The notes beneath the pieces were generated by a model. It saw only the letters and a program-made list of their open reading frames with translations, did not search any database and had not been told where the DNA came from. This document shows positions 10,096-19,579 of a DNA stretch of 25,787 bases, piece after piece. This stretch comes from a virus. The stretch is from the IMG/VR virus record IMGVR_UViG_3300033552_000051, positions 1 to 25,787 of that record. One strand, 5' to 3'. The position numbers were made by a program, and so were the translations under genes. The first letter of the stretch is position 1. The number at the start of each line of letters is the position of its first letter.

Positions 10096-10532
10096 CCGTT
10101 TATTCAAAATCAAACACATTCACTATTACAGACGGATGCGATAACATGCTTATTGCATATCGTAATAATTTTAATGCGTATAATTTTGAATGGGAGTCTT
10201 TTGCTGGTACGTATCAGCAAGTGCGAATAGGGGCTTTCTTGCGAAGCGACAAGCCATCAAAAAAAGAGCAAGTATATCGTAAGTCTAACGGAGAGTACAG
10301 AAGGGGTAATACTTTTATTGACAAAACTATTGAATTACATAGTGATTTAGTAGATGAAGAAACAAGAGACGCTTTTATGGTTGCTCTTTCGCATTCCAAC
10401 TTTAAAATAAACGGTAAAGATTATTTTTGTTTTGGCGATATTGCTTATGAAGATAACGAGTACAATAACTTGGCTAATATAACAGCGGTGCTTTACGATC
10501 AAGGTTTTAATCAATCAAATATCCAATGTTAA
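10092..10532 (+). CDS. tail/baseplate protein (146 aa, putative)
   Basis: A 146-aa protein with DGCDNMLIAYRNNFNAYNFEWESF near the N-terminus split by aromatic residues, then EQVYRKSNGEY, a charged helix (DLVDEETRDAFMVAL) and SHSNFKINGKDY. This order (aromatic strand, YR...EY, acidic turn, helix, 'S..v.i' strand) recalls small baseplate proteins I have seen in Bacteroidota phages, but I cannot name the family. ATGA coupling joins it to the gene before, and it overlaps the portal start by 7 nt. Structural role inferred. Confidence 0.55.
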   Translation: MTVYSKSNTFTITDGCDNMLIAYRNNFNAYNFEWESFAGTYQQVRIGAFLRSDKPSKKEQVYRKSNGEYRRGNTFIDKTIELHSDLVDEETRDAFMVALSHSNFKINGKDYFCFGDIAYEDNEYNNLANITAVLYDQGFNQSNIQC

Positions 10533-12331
10533 GTCAGGATTATATAAATCAATTCTTAAAAAGTGATCCATACAAACATGAATCATACCACAAGGCCTTA
10601 GAAATAGCTAACGGATTAAAGGTTCACTCTAAAGGTGAAAAACCACTAAGTCTATTAAAGAAAGCACGCCCAAATGAGGCCCCCAAGTATCAATTATGGA
10701 GAGAGGAAAGGTTTACCCCTATCACTAAGACATACTTTCAAAAGGCCGTTACAACACTTTCTAAGATGCGTAAGGCCGAAGATTGGAATTACGGGTTCAA
10801 AGAAGAAAAGAATGCATACATTAAAAAATCATCTTTTAGGGACTATCTAACAAAGGATTATCCTTTCTTTGATTCATTTGATAACTGGCTATTCCAAGTT
10901 GCATGGACTACAATGTTTGAAGACCCTAACGCGGTTATTTGTTGTATTCCTTTGCCAAAAAAAGACCCTACAAACGATACGGAATATCTAAGGCCATTTA
11001 ACCGGATACGTGGAGCTGAATACATTTTAGACTTTATGGATGGGGAATACGCTACTGTAATTTCCGATGAAAAAAGCATGGTAACCGTAAATGACGCCCA
11101 GGTAAAAGAGGGTATTGTTTATTGGTTTTTTGATAGAGAGGCCATTCAAATATTTAAGCAAACAGGCAATAAAGATAAGTTTCAGTTCACTAATTTAGAT
11201 GACAGTGGAAAGCCTATGATTATTAATCATGGTTTTGGTCACATGCCTTGCTGGAAAATTGGAGGTAATCTAATCGACTTCGACAATGGATTCATGCTTT
11301 ATGATTCCCTTATTTCGGGCTGTGTAGACTTCTTTAATGAGGCTATCATGGACTTTTCAGATCACCAAGTCAATAAAGCTATTCACTTACACCCGGATAG
11401 ATGGGAGATTGCAGACGTTGAATGTAGGTCATGTAAGGGCACGGGTTCAATATTCGTAACACCTTCTAACGGGCCTAAGTATTCGGCTTCATGCAACGAT
11501 TGTCAAGGACAGGGTAAAATAGCGGTTAAATCTCCGTTTGGTGTTAAATATATTAAGGCAGGTCAAAAAGAAGGTGTAAATGAAGTTATAGCAACCCCAA
11601 CCCCTCCTATGGGTTACGCTTTGCGCGATATTGCATCTATGAAGATGTTGAAAGATGAGTACTTAGATGACATTAGACAAGGTTTATCGGGTATTAACAT
11701 GGAATTCATGCTGGAAAGCCCTACGGACGCGAGCGGTGTAAGTAAAGCGCAAGATCATGAAGGATTATATACATTAATGACTCAAGTTGCTAGAAATACA
11801 GTTGAAAACAACATTATGCCTTCATTCTACTTTACAGCAATGTACATGTATAATAAGCAGGTTAAGCCAGAAGAGATTGAAGAGTTTTTGCCAAGCGTAC
11901 AAGTGCCAGAGAAATTCGATATGGTTATTTCTTCGCTATTATCAGAAAAGGCGGTAAGCGCAAAGACTGCAGGGCTAGACGAAAGCATTACTTCAAATCT
12001 TGAAATATCTTATGCTAAAAAACAATGGGGAGAGTATAGCGACATTCCAAAGAAAATGGAAATTATCGCACGACATGATCCATTGAAAGGCCAAAGTTCA
12101 GAGGAAAAAATGACAACCCTAGCAAACGGAGGGTGTACAAAAGATGATTATATTTTAAGTAATCAAATTTATCACTTCACAGAACGCGCATGTGTTGAAA
12201 ATGCAGATTTCTTAGCCTTAGATTACGCTAAACAAGCTGTAATTTATGATAAATATACAAGTGAAGTAAGAAGCAAGGCCGTAACGGCTGTCCCTATAGT
12301 TAACAAAAATGGATTACCTGCAAATAATTGA
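10526..12331 (+). CDS. portal protein with DnaJ-like zinc motifs (putative)
   Basis: A 601-aa protein that should form the dodecameric ring at one capsid vertex through which DNA passes. The size, the segment order (N-terminal helices, mixed alpha/beta core, long C-terminal helices from about 420 to 480) and the position just before a MuF-like gene all fit a portal. Within the core, C300-x2-C303-x-G-x-G and C323-x2-C326-x-G-x-G form two CxxCxGxG motifs about 20 residues apart, as in DnaJ zinc domains, probably binding one zinc ion. It overlaps the next gene by 23 nt. The portal call is from context and general form; no single diagnostic motif proves it. Confidence 0.75.
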   Translation: MLSQDYINQFLKSDPYKHESYHKALEIANGLKVHSKGEKPLSLLKKARPNEAPKYQLWREERFTPITKTYFQKAVTTLSKMRKAEDWNYGFKEEKNAYIKKSSFRDYLTKDYPFFDSFDNWLFQVAWTTMFEDPNAVICCIPLPKKDPTNDTEYLRPFNRIRGAEYILDFMDGEYATVISDEKSMVTVNDAQVKEGIVYWFFDREAIQIFKQTGNKDKFQFTNLDDSGKPMIINHGFGHMPCWKIGGNLIDFDNGFMLYDSLISGCVDFFNEAIMDFSDHQVNKAIHLHPDRWEIADVECRSCKGTGSIFVTPSNGPKYSASCNDCQGQGKIAVKSPFGVKYIKAGQKEGVNEVIATPTPPMGYALRDIASMKMLKDEYLDDIRQGLSGINMEFMLESPTDASGVSKAQDHEGLYTLMTQVARNTVENNIMPSFYFTAMYMYNKQVKPEEIEEFLPSVQVPEKFDMVISSLLSEKAVSAKTAGLDESITSNLEISYAKKQWGEYSDIPKKMEIIARHDPLKGQSSEEKMTTLANGGCTKDDYILSNQIYHFTERACVENADFLALDYAKQAVIYDKYTSEVRSKAVTAVPIVNKNGLPANN

Positions 12332-13175
12332 TAAGTTAGAGGCCGACACCTCTATTATGTTAGATCAATTGAGCGCAACAACTGCGTCCAGTTCTATAGA
12401 AATAGAAGGTTTCCTTAACGACTTTTTAGCAACGCTTCAAAGAAACTCAGATGGAACCATTAAAAGTTCTGTAGAAAATCTAAAGGCGATTAATAAGCTA
12501 CGTCCTCAATTAAATGATTTCATTTCAAAAACAGAATACGGCCAACAGTCGATAAAATTCGCAGGTGAATACAAGGATTTAACACCATTGATGAACGATT
12601 ACTTCGCTTCAATGGCTTTAGAATTTAGTAAACCATTATTACTAAAAGAGGTATTAAATACTTCGATTCAATCTACAGTTGATAGTTTGGTTGGTTCTGG
12701 TATGGATGCCTCTTTTGGTGAGCCGATATTAAATATTTTTAAAACTGCCGTAACTAGCGGATCAGATAGAGCATCTATAAAGAATGCTATATCAAAGTAC
12801 TTGAAAGATGAAGGGAAGCTTAACAAATACGCTACCCAAGTATCAGAAGATGCAGTTCATCAATATACGTCTCATTACATCGACACAATAAGCGCAGATT
12901 TAGAGCTAGGGCATTACTACTTCAAAGGAACCAAGATAGCAGACTCACGGCCACAATGCGTTAAGATGGCAGGGTATTATTTTACAGCCAAGCAACTAAA
13001 ACAAGTTGTTGAAGATGGCATGAAATTAAACGCAGGTAAAGGCTGGCAAGGAATGATAGCCGGCACAAATTGGAACAACTACAAAGTATACCGTAATGGG
13101 CATAGGTGCAGACATTATGTTTTACCAATTTCTAAGGTAATATATGAGAAGGCTTTAAAGAAATGGGGTAATTAA
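12309..13175 (+). CDS. MuF-like minor head protein
   Basis: A 288-aa protein whose C-terminal 80 residues carry the Mu gpF-like signature: ADSRPQC at about 211-217, GKGWQGM at about 243-249 and NGHRCRHYVLPIS at about 263-275. This domain is found in minor capsid proteins encoded next to portals (Mu gpF, SPP1 gp7), which act in head morphogenesis and DNA ejection. The N-terminal two thirds is helical (coiled coil) and probably docks on the portal. The start at ATG 12309 overlaps the portal end by 23 nt. The stop overlaps by 4 nt the end of a convergent minus-strand gene. Confidence 0.85.
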   Translation: MDYLQIIDKLEADTSIMLDQLSATTASSSIEIEGFLNDFLATLQRNSDGTIKSSVENLKAINKLRPQLNDFISKTEYGQQSIKFAGEYKDLTPLMNDYFASMALEFSKPLLLKEVLNTSIQSTVDSLVGSGMDASFGEPILNIFKTAVTSGSDRASIKNAISKYLKDEGKLNKYATQVSEDAVHQYTSHYIDTISADLELGHYYFKGTKIADSRPQCVKMAGYYFTAKQLKQVVEDGMKLNAGKGWQGMIAGTNWNNYKVYRNGHRCRHYVLPISKVIYEKALKKWGN

Positions 13176-13303
13176 GGACAAGGAATAATTGCACCTGTTT
13201 GATCTGTGCACACGGTTTGGTTTTTATTTGGTTTTGGGTCGTCATTGTTTTTTTTACAAGACATGATTGAAGCAATTGCGAGTAATAATAATAACTTTTT
13301 CAT
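13172..13303 (-). CDS. small lipoprotein (43 aa)
   Basis: Read on the minus strand from ATG at 13303 to TAA at 13172. The protein starts MKKLLLLLAIASIMSC: two lysines, a leucine-rich core and a lipobox-like IMSC at residues 13-16, so signal peptidase II cleavage before C16 is expected. The mature part begins CKKNNDDPKP (charged, as in Bacteroidota surface-exported lipoproteins) and has two more cysteines (C32, C42). Its ATG overlaps the stop of the 60-aa gene upstream (ATGA). Candidate roles are superinfection exclusion, lysogenic conversion or an outer-membrane spanin; nothing in the sequence decides between them. It is convergent with the MuF gene, sharing 4 nt. Confidence 0.65.
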   Translation of the reverse strand: MKKLLLLLAIASIMSCKKNNDDPKPNKNQTVCTDQTGAIIPCP

Positions 13304-13482
13304 TTTTTATCTTTTAATTGGTCGTACAATATAATAATTTCACAGATGGCATCTACTTGATTTATCAATTCATTATGCTTGTCTTCGTATTCACGCTGAA
13401 ATTTACGAATAATTTTCTTTTCTTCTTCACAAAGCAGCACATTTGCAATCGTACAGCTATTTATGGGTTTTCTGTTTGCCAT
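13300..13482 (-). CDS. small helical hypothetical protein (60 aa)
   Basis: A 60-aa, highly charged, probably coiled-coil protein (KIIRKFQREYEDKHNEL) with a short hydrophobic patch near the end (ICEIIILYDQL) that is too short and too interrupted for a confident membrane span. It is the first gene of a two-gene minus-strand cassette and overlaps the lipoprotein start by 4 nt (ATGA), so the two are translationally coupled. Its 5' flank is the AT-rich divergent region shared with the glycosyltransferase operon. No family is recognised. A partner function with the lipoprotein is inferred from coupling. Confidence 0.6.
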   Translation of the reverse strand: MANRKPINSCTIANVLLCEEEKKIIRKFQREYEDKHNELINQVDAICEIIILYDQLKDKK

Positions 13483-13541: not shown

Positions 13542-14210
13542 ATGAATCTTTTAATTAAATATCCGACTCGATCAAGACCAGAACTATTCCTTAAAACACT
13601 AAAGGAGTACATTGATAATGAGTCAAAAACGAATGAAATAACATATTTGATTAGCTATGATTCAGATGATGTGTCGATGACAGAAAGCGTTATTAATACA
13701 GCCAAATCATTTTCGGATAATATTATTTTTGTAAAAGGCAATTCAAAAACAAAGATTCAGGCATGTAATGCAGATATTGAAAATGTAAAGGATTGGGATA
13801 TTATAGTCCTTATTTCTGATGATATGCACGTACAGATTTACGGATGGGACTATCAAATTGTTAAGGACATGGAAAAGATGTTCCCGGATACAAACGGATG
13901 CCTATGGTATCATGATGGAAGCTCCCAACGAGACATATCAACCCTTTCAATCGTGGGTAGAAAGTATTACGATCAATACGGTTATTTATATCACCCTTCT
14001 TACAAATCATTTTTCTGCGATAACGAATACACAGAGGTTGCTATCCGTAACGGTGCAATTAGATTTATTAATGGAGTCATTATAAAGCATCAGCACCCTG
14101 CATGGGGGCAAGGTATCCCAATGGATACACTTTACAATCACAATGACAAGTACTGGGGTGAGGATATGGCAAACTATAACGAAAGAAAAGCAAATGGATT
14201 CAGAGATTAA
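13542..14210 (+). CDS. GT-A type glycosyltransferase (putative)
   Basis: A 222-aa protein beginning MNLLIKYPTRSRP, the first beta strand of a Rossmann-like GT-A fold. A nucleotide-sugar region follows (YDSDD at 39-43) and then a DxD-like metal site in VLISDDMHVQ (SDD at 92-94). Late conserved residues (GWD, HQHPAWGQG, YWGEDM) fit an acceptor-side domain. There is no signal peptide or membrane segment, so it would act in the cytoplasm, transferring a sugar from an activated donor. It opens a six-gene cassette and overlaps the next start by 17 nt. Donor and acceptor are unknown. Confidence 0.75.
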   Translation: MNLLIKYPTRSRPELFLKTLKEYIDNESKTNEITYLISYDSDDVSMTESVINTAKSFSDNIIFVKGNSKTKIQACNADIENVKDWDIIVLISDDMHVQIYGWDYQIVKDMEKMFPDTNGCLWYHDGSSQRDISTLSIVGRKYYDQYGYLYHPSYKSFFCDNEYTEVAIRNGAIRFINGVIIKHQHPAWGQGIPMDTLYNHNDKYWGEDMANYNERKANGFRD

Positions 14211-14772
14211 ATTATCTATACTAGTGCCTACGGTTGTAGGGCGTGAACATTTATTTAGAGTATTGTTTTCAGAGTTGCAAAAACAGGGATTAGAAAAGCC
14301 TATTGAAATTATTGTTTGTAAGGATAATAAAGAATTGTCAATAGGATCAAAAAGGCAAAAGTTGATAGAAGACGCAAAAGGCGAATATATTGTTTTTGTT
14401 GATGATGACGATATGGTCGCATCTGATTATGTTGAACAAATATTAAACAACACAGGAAGTGACGCAATAGGCTTTCAAATAGAGTGTACGTTTGACGGTG
14501 TAGGTAAATGTTTAGCCTCGGCATCTCGTAGATACCAAGATTGGGGAGAAAATAGAGATGGATTTAGATACGTGCGTTCGATTTATCATAAAACACCTGT
14601 TCGTAGAGAATTAGCATTGAAAGCAGGATTTAAGGATATGCGATTTGGTGAGGACTATGATTACTCGATGCGAATTATGCCTTTAATTAAATCAGAGGCT
14701 TATATAAATAAGGTTATGTACTATTACAGATACGTTGGCGAATCACATAACGAAAAGTATGGAATCATCTAA
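14194..14772 (+). CDS. family 2-like glycosyltransferase
   Basis: From ATG 14194 the product is 192 aa. LSILVPTVVGREHLF at 7-21 is the classic first strand of GT2 enzymes, KGEYIVFVDDDDMV gives the DDDD metal site at 70-73, and GEDYDYSMRI near residue 153 gives the ED-type catalytic region. An upstream in-frame ATG at 14143 would add 17 residues, but the GT2 fold starts after the later ATG, so 14194 is preferred. It is shorter than many GT2 enzymes and has no membrane segment. Overlaps on both sides (17 nt and 14 nt) place it in the coupled cassette. Linkage and substrate are unknown. Confidence 0.85.
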   Translation: MDSEIKLSILVPTVVGREHLFRVLFSELQKQGLEKPIEIIVCKDNKELSIGSKRQKLIEDAKGEYIVFVDDDDMVASDYVEQILNNTGSDAIGFQIECTFDGVGKCLASASRRYQDWGENRDGFRYVRSIYHKTPVRRELALKAGFKDMRFGEDYDYSMRIMPLIKSEAYINKVMYYYRYVGESHNEKYGII

Positions 14773-15436
14773 AAAGTGTATTATACTTGCTGGCGCAATG
14801 GGTTCTTGGTACGAAGCAGGATCACGAAGACTAGAAAAGTCTTTAATGTTCAACGGTTACGCTTTCGACTTTAAATCATTCGATAAGATAGGCGGCAATT
14901 ACGATGCTTCATGTCCGTACAATATAAAAGCAGAAGCGATAGAATGGGCCGTTAATGCAGGCTATGAAATTATAATATGGTTAGACGCTTCTTTTTGGGC
15001 TTTAAGGGATATTATGCCATTCTTAGATATTGTTAACGGTGAAGGTTATTACATGGGAATGTCTGGGTATAATTGCGCTCAAACATGTTCCGACAATCAA
15101 TTACAGTATTTCGGAATATCAAGAGATGAAGCGGAGCATATGAACGAAACAAGTTCCGGAGCAATGGGTTTCAATATGGCAAACCCGACCGCTAAATCAT
15201 TTGTTGAGCAGTTTATTAAATCGGCAAAAGATGGAGCATTTAAAGGTTCTCGACTACATGACAACCAAAGCAAAGATTCACGGTTCTTATTCTGTAGGCA
15301 AGATCAATCATGCGCGTCTGTAATCGCTAATAAGTTAGGAATGAAACTAACTCCATTTGGAGAACAAGTTGCTTATTATCCGGAAGGCGATAAATCAATT
15401 TTAGATAAGGTAATTTTCACATTAAAAGGAATGTAA
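14759..15436 (+). CDS. nucleotide-sugar transferase-like protein
   Basis: A 225-aa protein from ATG 14759 (an in-frame TTG at 14735 would add 8 residues). It begins KKCIILAGAMGSWYEAG and has YEIIIWLDASFWALRDI (residues 69-85), where LDAS takes the place of the DxD motif in galactosyltransferase-like GT-A folds. Conserved-looking HMNETSSGAMGFNM and SRLHDNQSKDS follow. These features suggest a glycosyltransferase acting on phage or host glycans, supported by glycosyltransferases on both sides, but the family is not named with confidence. It overlaps the previous gene by 14 nt and meets the next as TAATG. Confidence 0.6.
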   Translation: MESSKKCIILAGAMGSWYEAGSRRLEKSLMFNGYAFDFKSFDKIGGNYDASCPYNIKAEAIEWAVNAGYEIIIWLDASFWALRDIMPFLDIVNGEGYYMGMSGYNCAQTCSDNQLQYFGISRDEAEHMNETSSGAMGFNMANPTAKSFVEQFIKSAKDGAFKGSRLHDNQSKDSRFLFCRQDQSCASVIANKLGMKLTPFGEQVAYYPEGDKSILDKVIFTLKGM

Positions 15437-16053
15437 TGAAAGATTTTAGTCAGAACGGTGAGCAACAAATTATATTAGATTATTTCAAAAACCACAAAGG
15501 CGGCTATTTAGATTTAGGTGCAAATGACGGCAAAACACTAAGTAACACGAAAGCCCTACATGATTTAGGGTGGAATGGTGTTTGTGTAGAACCTAGCAAT
15601 GAAGCATTTGAAAAAATAAAGTCTAGTCAGCCTAACGCAATAGGGTTAAATTTTGCGGTTTCGGACACAGATGGAGAGATTGAATTTTACGAGTCAGGCA
15701 CACACCTAAAAAACGGAGACACATCTCTTTTGTCTACCCTTAAAAAGTCTGAATTGAACCGATGGGAAGGGTCTGACAACCATTTCAATAAAACAAAGTG
15801 CAACTCCGTTTCTGTACCAACACTACTATCCAAGTTAAAGCTTTTCTTTATTGGCACTTATGACTTTATCTCTATTGATATTGAAGGACTCGACTACGAC
15901 GTACTTGTTCAAATGAATTTAAAATCTTTAGGGTGTAAAATGTTGTGCATCGAGACTAATTCAATAGAAGATCAAAAATACATTGATTACTGTGCTAATT
16001 TTGGAATGAAAGTGATTCACAAGAACGGCGAGAATTTAATATTTACAGTATGA
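15436..16053 (+). CDS. FkbM family methyltransferase
   Basis: A 205-aa SAM-dependent methyltransferase. Motif I is YLDLGANDG (24-32), the SAM-ribose acidic residue is in CVEPS (E52), and the FkbM-type FISIDIEGLDYDVL lies at 144-157. FkbM enzymes O-methylate sugars and polyketides; several act on glycans, which suits its place among glycosyltransferases. It would cap or modify the sugar chain made by the neighbours. Start and stop overlap the flanking genes (TAATG, ATGA). Family assignment is firm; the substrate is inferred from context only. Confidence 0.88.
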   Translation: MKDFSQNGEQQIILDYFKNHKGGYLDLGANDGKTLSNTKALHDLGWNGVCVEPSNEAFEKIKSSQPNAIGLNFAVSDTDGEIEFYESGTHLKNGDTSLLSTLKKSELNRWEGSDNHFNKTKCNSVSVPTLLSKLKLFFIGTYDFISIDIEGLDYDVLVQMNLKSLGCKMLCIETNSIEDQKYIDYCANFGMKVIHKNGENLIFTV

Positions 16054-16700
16054 AAACCTGTATATTAATATTTAATGATGGACGTAACGACTATTTAGAA
16101 CAGACACTAAAAAGCCTGTTTGAAAATGTTCAATTCAATGATAATTATAAAATACTCATTGATGATGTGCCAGAAAATAGGGATACTGACTTTTTAGAAT
16201 GGATTACAGCGCAATACGGGATTGATAGTCTTGTATTGAATGATGAAAACTTGGGCGTTTTCGGATCAGTTCAAAAGGCATGGGGGTTAATTCCAGAAGA
16301 TTGTACGCATGTATGGCATCAAGAAAACGACTTTATATTTAATGAAAAGATTGATTTTGATTCAATATTAAAGTTGTCAAATCATAAGAGAGTGTTTCAA
16401 GTTGCATTGTTGCGTCAAGATTGGTTTGCGTTTGAAAAGAAAGCAGGATCAATATTTAAAGCTTACCCAGGATTTAGGGATGCAAATGTTTCTGGTCATG
16501 ATGTTGTTTTGCACAAGAATTATTTTACCCATAACCCATGTTTGTATCGTAAAGAGCATGCTATCCAATGCATCGGTTATGACGAATATAAATATATGAA
16601 AGTATTGGAAAAAACAGATTCTAATGGATGGTGTGCATACCTTGGAAAGATGTCAGACACTCCAAGGGTTACGCATATAGGAGAGGTTAAATATGTTTGA
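16050..16700 (+). CDS. GT-A type glycosyltransferase (putative)
   Basis: A 216-aa protein starting MKTCILIFNDGRNDYLEQTL, a GT2-like first strand and helix. LNDENLGVFGSVQKAW (63-78) matches the 'N.G...a...g' donor-binding segment, and VWHQENDFIF has E92-N-D94 in the DxD position. There is no membrane segment. The later HVVL-like region (GHDVVLHKNYFTHNPCLYRK) may bind the acceptor. It overlaps the methyltransferase by 4 nt and the next glycosyltransferase by 8 nt, so it belongs to the same coupled cassette. Substrate not predictable. Confidence 0.75.
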   Translation: MKTCILIFNDGRNDYLEQTLKSLFENVQFNDNYKILIDDVPENRDTDFLEWITAQYGIDSLVLNDENLGVFGSVQKAWGLIPEDCTHVWHQENDFIFNEKIDFDSILKLSNHKRVFQVALLRQDWFAFEKKAGSIFKAYPGFRDANVSGHDVVLHKNYFTHNPCLYRKEHAIQCIGYDEYKYMKVLEKTDSNGWCAYLGKMSDTPRVTHIGEVKYV

Positions 16701-17319
16701 TGTAACCTACTATATTAACATGAAGTCTCGCACAGATAGGCGAATAAATATGAAGCATCGTTTATCTGAATTGGGAATAGAATCTATTCGTATTGAAGGT
16801 ATTAATGCAGGGGAATACGACACTGGTAATTTAGTATTTGGCGAACAAAAAAAACATCTTAATAATGCTGAAATAGGATGCTTTTTAACACATCACAATT
16901 TATATAAAACAATACTTGACGAAGGGCATGAAACGGCTTTAATACTCGAAGATGATGCGTTATTCTTAGAAGGATACAAAGAAGTAGTCGAGCAGGCAAT
17001 GAAAGACATACCTAAAGATTGGGATTTGCTTTATCTAGGACAAGCAAACTATGATTCAATTAAAATCGCTCAGTCTGCAGAATTAAAAACGCATGCAATT
17101 AAAGAAAATATAGCAGGCCAATTATTTAAAGCTTCGCGGTGTTGGCTAACACATGCGTATGTTGTTAATAGAAAAGCCTTACCTAAGTTAATAGAAGGAA
17201 CACAGGTGCTATATGCAAGCATAGACGGCGTATTGGCAGACCTTCAAGAAAATTTGAATGTATATGCAATTTATCCCAATATAGTTAAACAGGATGGAAC
17301 ACAGAGTTCTATTCGCTAA
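16693..17319 (+). CDS. glycosyltransferase family 25 (LPS/LOS type)
   Basis: A 208-aa protein with clear GT25 features: VTYYINMKSRTDRRINM (4-20) is the 'INL..R.DRR' signature, AEIGCFLTHHNLYKTI (59-74) is the 'GE.GC..SH...w' segment, and ALILEDDALF gives EDD at 86-88. Family members add galactose or similar sugars to lipooligosaccharide or proteins. No export signal is present. It is the last gene of the cassette; the next gene starts 10 nt later, so transcription probably continues into the capsid genes. Family assignment is confident; the acceptor is unknown. Confidence 0.88.
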   Translation: MFDVTYYINMKSRTDRRINMKHRLSELGIESIRIEGINAGEYDTGNLVFGEQKKHLNNAEIGCFLTHHNLYKTILDEGHETALILEDDALFLEGYKEVVEQAMKDIPKDWDLLYLGQANYDSIKIAQSAELKTHAIKENIAGQLFKASRCWLTHAYVVNRKALPKLIEGTQVLYASIDGVLADLQENLNVYAIYPNIVKQDGTQSSIR

Positions 17320-17329
17320 ATAAAAGTGT

Positions 17330-17617
17330 ATGAAAAAGAATGAACCAATACCAGAAGGTTTTGTATACGTTACAAGACAAATTATAAAAGACAACGTCTA
17401 CGAAGGCGACGAAGAAGTGCTTGTTTGGGGAGAAAAAGCCGATCAGCAGCTAAGTCTTCCAAACGATGAACGTAATCCACACTGGAGAAACGTAAAATTT
17501 AAACAAGTAGAACAAAGAGAAATACCCTCGTATGTTGAAGGAACTAGTTTTGTTCCCGGCATTGAAGAAGAATCAACAGGTATCGACATTCCTAAGAAAA
17601 GAACAAGAAACGTATGA
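17330..17617 (+). CDS. hypothetical protein (95 aa) upstream of scaffold
   Basis: A 95-aa, acidic and proline-containing, probably largely extended protein (PIPEGFVYVTRQII at the start, basic KKRTRNV end). No motif is recognised. It overlaps the scaffold-like gene by 4 nt (ATGA), so it is likely a head-assembly accessory or internal protein, but this rests on position only. It lacks cysteine and membrane segments. Confidence 0.55.
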   Translation: MKKNEPIPEGFVYVTRQIIKDNVYEGDEEVLVWGEKADQQLSLPNDERNPHWRNVKFKQVEQREIPSYVEGTSFVPGIEEESTGIDIPKKRTRNV

Positions 17618-18456
17618 AACTAGGCGAATTTATAGCTGCAGCAGCTGAAAAAATAGGCATTGATGTAACGGATGCCTCATTAAAAGAATTGGTAGGATCT
17701 CAACTTGACGTACCTGAGACATTGTCGGTAGGTCTTGACAAACTAATGACAGAGGAGGCTGCAAAGTCAAGTCCTATCATTAAAAAGCACTACTTGGATA
17801 ATATGGCTAATGGTCAAAATAAAAATCTTGATATCTTAGCTTCCGATTACGGCTTAAGCCAAGAGGAAAGAGACGAAATATTCAGAGATAATAAAACCGT
17901 ATCTGATAAACACAAAGCTATTGTTGCAAAGGTTGCTGAAAAATCAAAAGGGAAAGATTCTAAAGATGATAGCAAGGCGATAATTGAAAAGTTAAATGCC
18001 GATTTGGTAGAAGCTCGTTCCTTAACAGATAAAAAAGTTTCAGAAGTTACCAATCAATATGAATCTAAAATGCTAGACGATCATATTGTAGGATCATTTA
18101 TGAAAAAAACATGGAGTTCTAATTTCTCAGAAGAAAATAGGCCAGAATTTGCTAAAATCGCTTTAGACAGAGAACTTAAAAAGATGGGAGCCGTTTTAGT
18201 AAAAGACGGACAATCAATTAAAATAGTTCGTGCTGAAAATAAAGAGCAAGATTATTTTGATACTAAAAATCAAAAAGTTACATTTGACGAGTTGAGAGAT
18301 AATATCTTTGCAACTAATAATTTTGGTTCGATTTCATCGGACACGCCCCACCCTGTTGTACCTCATGTACAAACGCCCACAACACAATCAACACAGTATC
18401 TAGACCCAAGAACCGCGGCAGCTTTTGCAGCATCTAAGGCAGATCAAAACATGTAA
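17614..18456 (+). CDS. capsid scaffolding protein (putative)
   Basis: A 280-aa, charged, Lys/Glu/Asp-rich protein with a long predicted coiled coil (about 85-150, KAIIEKLNADLVEARSL) and a flexible Pro/Thr/Gln-rich C-terminal tail ending in a short helix (PRTAAAFAASKADQNM). Scaffold proteins typically place the capsid-binding helix at the C-terminus. It directly precedes the probable major capsid gene with a 4-nt gap from its stop. No serine protease triad is evident, so scaffold rather than protease is favoured. The call rests on composition and position. Confidence 0.65.
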   Translation: MKLGEFIAAAAEKIGIDVTDASLKELVGSQLDVPETLSVGLDKLMTEEAAKSSPIIKKHYLDNMANGQNKNLDILASDYGLSQEERDEIFRDNKTVSDKHKAIVAKVAEKSKGKDSKDDSKAIIEKLNADLVEARSLTDKKVSEVTNQYESKMLDDHIVGSFMKKTWSSNFSEENRPEFAKIALDRELKKMGAVLVKDGQSIKIVRAENKEQDYFDTKNQKVTFDELRDNIFATNNFGSISSDTPHPVVPHVQTPTTQSTQYLDPRTAAAFAASKADQNM

Positions 18457-18460
18457 AACC

Positions 18461-19579
18461 ATGTCGATTACACAACAAAACGGGGTGTGTCCAGCAATAT
18501 TAGCCTCATTTGAGGAACTGAGCGCACCGAACAATATGGCAAACCTTAAGACGCCAGTAGGTCTTATTGATGCCCTTTACGATCCTTCCAACGTGCAAGG
18601 CGTAACAGTTGAACAGCTAGGAGATGGAGGCGAAGGCCACCGCAAAACTGTTCGTATCATGCACAAGCAACGTCAATCTATTAGTGATGTTCGTACTGCA
18701 AAAACTTGTGATACAGGCGTAGAAAAGCCAAGATTTGAAACAACATTTGACGTTAACATGAACGCTGAAATTGCCATTAAGGTAAGTGAAGCAACAGTTA
18801 GAAGATTATGTTCTGCTTATTCTGCTTTACAAACTATTCCCGTAGCTACAAGATCAAGCAACGCAACGGCTCAAAATTCATTATTGATTATGCGAGAAAT
18901 TGCAGAAGAAATTAACATGGATATTGATGCTTTACGTCAAAAAGTTGATGACACAGGATTAGAAGCAGTTGAACTTAACTTTGGTAGGTACCAAGGCGGC
19001 GCGACTTTTAAAGAGTATAAAATGTTAAAGTCCGCAACGGATCACTCCATTGTAACTGCAGCTTTTAATACTTGGAAAGAAGACATGCGTAAAATAGGAA
19101 TGACGGGAATGCCTCTAGTTGTAGGTAATGGCGTCATATCTTACGCGATGGATGAATTAGGTATCGGATGTTGCAATATTGGCGGTCAGGATATTGGTAA
19201 ACTTGGCGCGCGTCAAGATGCTAAGTTCTTCTATGACTCTGCCGATTTAGCTTCCCATTTTGGTGTATTGCCCAGTGGAGCGCAGCCGTTTATTTCGTTC
19301 TTCCCTAAGATGATGCAAATGGTTACATATAATAAGTATGTAGGGCCTACGTTCTCCAAGCCAATCGGTATTATGGAACGAGGTACTTTGCCTGATGCAA
19401 AAATTCCAGGTTTGAGATACGATATCCGTATCAAGCCGAACGAGTGCGGTGAGTACTATGATTTATGGGTAGATTTAGATTACGATTTCTACTTTGCGCC
19501 TCAAACATTGTTTAAATCTACTGATAGATTAAGTGGTGTTAACGGTATCTTCAAGGGATTTGCAGGTTACGTATCATAA
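18461..19579 (+). CDS. major capsid protein (putative)
   Basis: From ATG 18461 (4 nt after the scaffold stop; an upstream in-frame TTG at 18425 would overlap it) the product is 372 aa. It is a soluble mixed alpha/beta protein with an N-terminal extension, a central helix (SLLIMREIAEEINMDIDAL) and a C-terminal beta-rich region (LRYDIRIKPNECGEYYDLWVDL), which fits an HK97-type shell protein. It follows a scaffold-like gene and is followed at once by a strong terminator, as expected for the most highly expressed gene. No sequence signature proves the fold, so the call is contextual. It contains several Cys (GCCNIGG). Confidence 0.75.
   Translation: MSITQQNGVCPAILASFEELSAPNNMANLKTPVGLIDALYDPSNVQGVTVEQLGDGGEGHRKTVRIMHKQRQSISDVRTAKTCDTGVEKPRFETTFDVNMNAEIAIKVSEATVRRLCSAYSALQTIPVATRSSNATAQNSLLIMREIAEEINMDIDALRQKVDDTGLEAVELNFGRYQGGATFKEYKMLKSATDHSIVTAAFNTWKEDMRKIGMTGMPLVVGNGVISYAMDELGIGCCNIGGQDIGKLGARQDAKFFYDSADLASHFGVLPSGAQPFISFFPKMMQMVTYNKYVGPTFSKPIGIMERGTLPDAKIPGLRYDIRIKPNECGEYYDLWVDLDYDFYFAPQTLFKSTDRLSGVNGIFKGFAGYVS

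Follow-up and report, generated by a model that had tools for sequence, protein, structure and literature searches.

A six-gene sugar-modification cassette before the putative scaffold and capsid genes of a phage, and its probable role in virion glycosylation

Six overlapping genes encode five glycosyltransferases and an FkbM methyltransferase

The window (the whole stretch of DNA that was analysed, 25,787 nt long, from an uncultured phage) carries six open reading frames on the plus strand between positions 13542 and 17319. With the starts of genes 2 and 3 set by homologues (moved from 14143 to the ATG at 14194 and from the TTG at 14735 to the ATG at 14759, respectively), successive frames overlap by only 1-17 bp, so that the run of six overlapping genes described in the initial annotation was borne out.

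13542..14210, plus strand: gene 1 (GT1), GT2-superfamily glycosyltransferase (PHROG 14945, E 1e-17)
14194..14772, plus strand: gene 2 (GT2), glycosyltransferase family 2 (PF00535, E 5e-7)
14759..15436, plus strand: gene 3 (g3), predicted GT-A-fold glycosyltransferase (AlphaFold model and Foldseek)
15436..16053, plus strand: gene 4, FkbM-family SAM-dependent methyltransferase (PF05050, E 2e-14)
16050..16700, plus strand: gene 5 (g5), GT2-like glycosyltransferase (PHROG 3047, galactosyltransferase, E 1e-4)
16693..17319, plus strand: gene 6, glycosyltransferase family 25 (GT25; PF01755, E 3e-23)

The content of five glycosyltransferases (GT) and one FkbM methyltransferase, also proposed in the initial annotation, holds on the basis of Pfam, PHROG, matches of family members and the structure predicted for gene 3; genes 1, 2 and 5 have profiles from a single superfamily, and the GT labels are best-match labels. 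Three of the proteins score above the curated Pfam cut-offs: gene 2 (30.3 bits versus 23.3 for PF00535), gene 4 (54.7 versus 22.7 for PF05050) and gene 6 (83 versus 24 for PF01755). The last of these keeps the EDD motif in an invariant LILEDDA, and the solved structures nearest to its profile are those of procollagen galactosyltransferase 1 (E 1e-23). The family of gene 2 also includes the N-terminus of Che8 gp108, Avani gp105 and LittleE gp15. For gene 1, whose orthologues at the same place are 56-60% identical, Glycos_transf_2 (PF00535) was matched by 6 of 19 aligned family members, and for gene 5 by three of four aligned homologues (best E 2e-5).

Structure searches, which had been suggested for all six proteins, were informative for gene 3, while the model of gene 5 was too poor (pLDDT 62.8) for such a search. 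As gene 3 matched no curated family in Pfam or PHROG, its assignment was made by structure prediction. Its AlphaFold model is confident (pLDDT 93.7), and in Foldseek it matched GT-A enzymes with E of about 1e-6, the top matches including UGGT, alpha-1,3-galactosyltransferase (alpha-1,3-GalT) and the capsid glycosyltransferase of PBCV-1. Membership among GT-A enzymes requires the GT-A fold and a conserved acidic D-x-D/S-type motif; the model has the predicted fold, and W-D (WxD) and R-D (RxD) motifs are invariant across 23 gene 3 homologues. Judged by the model, gene 3 represents a new GT family of GT-A fold for which Pfam has no model.

By hydropathy alone, used here in place of a dedicated predictor, no signal peptide or membrane-spanning stretch was found in the six proteins (maximum 19-residue mean of 1.31). 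They thus look soluble, in agreement with the earlier proposal of cytoplasmic action. The similarity in base composition to neighbouring genes was also confirmed (G+C of 0.34-0.38 in the cassette versus 0.36-0.41).

The cassette runs into the scaffold-capsid unit but is separated from the portal-MuF pair

The cassette is flanked by the following features.

10526..12331, plus strand: portal, upstream border
12309..13175, plus strand: MuF-like gene by position, upstream border
13172..13482, minus strand: two short ORFs (60 aa; lipoprotein-like, about 43 aa), variable site between MuF and the cassette
17330..17617, plus strand: small conserved gene between GT25 and scaffold
17614..18456, plus strand: putative scaffold, by position before the capsid gene and by orthologues
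18461..19579, plus strand: putative major capsid protein, by position and by orthologues in all relatives

The flanking names given initially stand on different grounds. That of the portal is supported through a relative, as the portal of contig L086 matches PHROG 7376 (E 1e-14). No significant family match in Pfam or PHROG was obtained for the MuF-like (a weak match only), scaffold and capsid proteins, nor a PDB match for the capsid profile, and these three are therefore named from gene order and size. The small conserved gene has an orthologue in contig L002, and genes of similar size occupy its site in L086, L087 and L173. The portal-like protein (10526-12331) has a CxxCxGxG repeat (CRSCKGTG...CNDCQGQG), which is unusual in portals and is kept in relatives.

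The cassette had been placed inside the head operon, and this proved correct on one side. Downstream, only 10 bp separate GT25 from the small gene, which is followed by scaffold and capsid without real gaps. Upstream, however, a 366-bp gap lies between the MuF-like gene and the cassette and contains both minus-strand ORFs, the 60-aa one at 13300-13482. The cassette therefore opens a unit that continues into scaffold and capsid, yet it is separated from portal and MuF. In L086 and L087, different minus-strand genes occupy the same site. A promoter scan of the region gave 36 hits versus 29.4 in shuffled sequences (sd 4.9), which is not above the shuffles. One minus-strand ORF at 13172-13482 begins with a lipoprotein signal-like stretch, MKKLLLLLAIASIMSC, while the flanking late region is on the plus strand.

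The cassette is conserved in capsid relatives

A capsid-seeded scan, in which relatives with at least 40% capsid identity were counted, yielded five contigs, and in all five the cassette lies directly upstream of scaffold and capsid. It is complete, in the same six-gene order, in four of them (L085, L086, L087 and L089, the first two near-identical); the fifth, L002, ends inside GT25, whose C-terminus there is 79% identical. The order is thus kept in diverged phages whose six proteins are 45-70% identical, whereas across the same relatives capsid identity is about 43% and scaffold identity has fallen to about 30%. Whichever pair of cassette orthologues is compared, it is the third codon position that differs most, so all six genes are kept under purifying selection. 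The cassette is real and old, in line with the long residence in the lineage proposed at first.

One extra gene is present between gene 3 and FkbM in L085/L086; its sequence resembles a SAM methyltransferase, although it matched nothing in PHROG or Pfam. A family of about 200 aa, SAM methyltransferase-like but with no PHROG or Pfam match, was seen at L085:2962-3558, L086:11907-12473 and ten further loci (12 loci), often adjoining gene 3 or FkbM. The Ig-like C-terminus of the protein encoded after the capsid is kept in the cassette phages; we considered it as a diagnostic acceptor domain and rejected this idea, as a distant relative lacking GT2 also has a homologue.

GT25 looks ancestral before scaffold and capsid, next to a hotspot for sugar-related genes

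Ten more distant records (34-39 kb) lack GT2, and nine of them carry GT25. In the distant relatives examined (G006-G008 and L203/L204) GT25 stands directly before small gene, scaffold and capsid, and its coordinates in G003-G005 agree with this position. Because it occurs before scaffold and capsid alone, in distant relatives without the rest of the cassette, GT25 looks ancestral at this site and older there than the other genes.

In L203/L204, a GT1-FkbM-GT2-gene 3 core lies between MuF and GT25 on the strand opposite to the head genes, and L199 has a similar arrangement, partly seen at the contig end (the strand being judged relative to portal, MuF and, where the sequence covers it, capsid). 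The stretch between MuF and GT25 is thus a hotspot that receives sugar-related genes; the window's clade carries such genes in line with GT25. It follows that co-transcription with head genes is not essential. The co-regulation with virion genes that was suggested initially is therefore not fully supported, given also the minus-strand ORFs upstream of the cassette. The hotspot pattern weakens co-regulation as a necessary feature and, at the same time, lends weight to a functional link with the GT25-capsid pair.

Two further observations concern this hotspot. In L203, where GT25 is retained ahead of scaffold and capsid, the core of the opposite-strand cassette at L203:6697-11337 (+) is accompanied by a gene for an HNH endonuclease and by one with weak similarity to O-fucosyltransferases (E 0.0028, which falls short of the curated cut-off). 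At L173:4509-5216 (-), in a phage with GT25 and without GT2, there is a lone opposite-strand gene, glycosyltransferase-like by reading, for which no PHROG or Pfam match was found.

The opposite-strand cassettes of L203/L204 resemble independently expressed cargo. This would suit a reading in which the enzymes remodel LPS or capsule glycans on the host surface, in lysogeny or at a late stage of infection, either excluding other phages or freeing progeny. GT2, GT25 and FkbM families are known from surface-polysaccharide loci, and a small lipoprotein-like ORF is found at the adjacent variable site. On the other hand, the placement beside scaffold and capsid has long been kept, and no flippase, polymerase or membrane-anchored GT was seen. 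Serotype-conversion (Gtr) operons of temperate phages, which likewise encode their own glycosyltransferases, need the GtrA flippase and membrane GTs, whereas the six cassette proteins have no hydrophobic segment. We thus regard remodelling of the host surface, an alternative raised in the initial annotation, as unlikely and less favoured than a virion target.

A four-gene core recurs beside unrelated head modules

An alignment scan with gene 2 returned 80 loci. Within 5 kb of gene 2 (76 loci), gene 1 was found in 53, FkbM in 46 and gene 3 in 32; in the whole locus set, at least three of the six cassette families occur within 6 kb in 51 loci. Among control loci seeded with terminase, any of the six families was found in 0 of 79. 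An independent scan with gene 3 gave 16 loci (three of them the already known contigs L085-L087), each having at least two other core families. A four-gene core of GT1, GT2, gene 3 and FkbM thus recurs in about 50 metagenomic loci, all of them fragments, with G+C from 0.27 to 0.59. At least three unrelated head modules flank these loci: a PF04860 portal with a PF05065 capsid and MuF, a Clp protease with a capsid-like protein, and the type seen in the window. Scans of viral contigs with a single protein, either gene 3 or the portal, returned no relative; relatives do exist, and these probes were too specific. A small HNH-endonuclease-like gene, possibly a homing element, lies inside the cassette in L097, L106, L107 and L128.

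The GT2 of the window is closest to that of L089 (70%), while its capsid is not closest to L089, which only suggests exchange of GT2 between lineages; in an AU test on the GT2 tree, a single clade was not rejected (p 0.13, with one row, L100, mis-framed). We consider it possible, with somewhat less than even confidence, that the core (GT1, GT2, the predicted new GT-A family and FkbM) is a modular operon exchanged among many unrelated non-actinobacterial tailed phages, where it would glycosylate capsids. If this is true, glycosylated phage heads would be widespread in the environment and not a peculiarity of mycobacteriophages.

Beyond the window's clade, gene content, order and orientation are variable, additional genes (SAM methyltransferase, O-FucT-like, HNH) are present in some cassettes and missing from others, and in L149 the core sits between a virion gene and the portal. 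One might thus argue that the cassette is hotspot cargo moved by illegitimate recombination, with no single function and with a target (fibre, capsid or host glycan) that differs by phage. However, that the same four families so strongly co-occur in unrelated phages suggests one shared pathway, and we find the cargo explanation quite improbable.

Several cassettes lie near terminase genes, which could fit a role in glycosylating (hypermodifying) the bases of phage DNA as a defence against restriction. A hydroxylated base usually comes from an enzyme of the thymidylate synthase/hydroxymethylase family. Of 24 cassette-bearing records, which may be fragments and do not include the window, only 2 have a gene of this family, and a base hydroxymethylase is absent from G001 and G013-G015, the closest relatives of the window. 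Phage modules that glycosylate proteins, by contrast, do match the families of gene 2 and GT25. DNA-modifying GTs encoded by viruses are known (Pyle 2024, cited in PMC12619734), yet for this cassette we think a DNA target very unlikely.

As to the host, distant matches of virion proteins in Cellulophaga, Leeuwenhoekiella and Tenacibaculum phages suggest that it is probably a member of the Bacteroidota, a weak call since phages of Pseudanabaena and Rhodobacteraceae also match virion proteins of the window. A genome-contig scan with gene 1 found one contig only, L172 in a Sulfuritalea MAG (59% G+C); this was rejected as host evidence because the core is followed there by a virion-sized gene, and the contig is read as a phage.

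The cassette probably glycosylates a virion protein

We consider it fairly probable that the cassette is a cytoplasmic module for stepwise O-glycosylation which builds a methylated glycan on a putative virion protein acceptor. We infer the target, the order of action, the linkage, the sugars and the benefit as follows. GT25 would act first and link a sugar to a side chain of a virion protein soon after its synthesis; the capsid protein is the foremost candidate acceptor, followed by a tail-tube or decoration protein. Further sugars would then be added singly from host nucleotide-sugars by GT1, GT2, gene 3 and gene 5, and FkbM would O-methylate the glycan, probably as a cap. The decorated particle might be masked from binding proteins, antibodies or grazers, or might gain adhesion or stability.

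Several lines of evidence point to virion glycosylation. The cassette lies just upstream of small gene, scaffold and capsid in all capsid relatives found, GT25 alone is kept there in distant relatives, and the four-gene core co-occurs across unrelated head modules. The six proteins have no membrane segments, and procollagen galactosyltransferase 1, the nearest solved relative of GT25, acts on protein. Some points count against a virion target: LPS and small molecules are also substrates of bacterial GT25 and FkbM enzymes, virion proteins in the window's lineage are identified by position alone, and the neighbourhood of head genes is not constant, given the opposite-strand core of L203/L204 and L199 and the module at the far genome end in Che8 and Avani.

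The closest tested precedent, and a direct one for the virion target proposed initially, is mycobacteriophage Che8 gp108-110. PMC12363180, citing Freeman et al. 2023, lists virion glycosylation modules in mycobacteriophages (Che8 gp108-110, Corndog gp38 and Myrna), and describes Che8 gp110 and Corndog gp38 as essential for viral capsid glycosylation, which keeps antibodies off the particles. In Che8, gp108 joins a GT2 to an O-methyltransferase of the TylF type in one protein, gp109 is GT2-like and gp110 belongs to GT25; gp108 matches the GT2 profile of the window (165 bits) and gp110 its GT25 profile (28 bits). Both phages thus combine a GT2-family GT and a sugar O-methyltransferase with a further GT2-like GT and a GT25, and, as judged from gene families, the window appears to encode the defining set of a Che8-type module (GT25, a GT2-family GT and a sugar methyltransferase). 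Mycobacteriophages in general carry the gene 2 family (34-38%) and GT25. However, Che8 lacks gene 3 and FkbM, no orthologue of GT1 was detected in it, its methyltransferase is of a different type and fused, and its host is an actinobacterium.

Two more systems are informative. In LittleE (Omegavirus, gp15-21), the major capsid gene is directly followed by an orthologue of GT2 (37.5%) and three other genes annotated as GTs, which also favours virion glycosylation; the cluster differs in having a kinase-like gene and no profile match to FkbM, GT25 or gene 3. PBCV-1 A64R (2p72/2p73), a viral GT-A enzyme linked to glycosylation of the major capsid protein, is among the matches of the gene 3 model and points the same way. 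The likeness is only at the level of the fold (10% identity, other GT-A families scoring slightly higher), and PBCV-1 is an unrelated eukaryotic algal virus.

The kind of system is already known; its new parts are the predicted GT family and the wide environmental spread. Phage-encoded virion glycosylation was previously shown in few mycobacteriophages, and a recurring, defined gene set makes the frequency of sugar-coated phage particles testable outside actinobacteria.

The large terminase gene of the window is a mosaic

The large terminase (1267-2511) was compared with that of a relative having an 87% identical capsid (L003:9914-11194). The two proteins are almost the same in their C-terminal half and far more diverged in the N-terminal ATPase half (57% identity over the whole length), which suggests recombination inside this gene.
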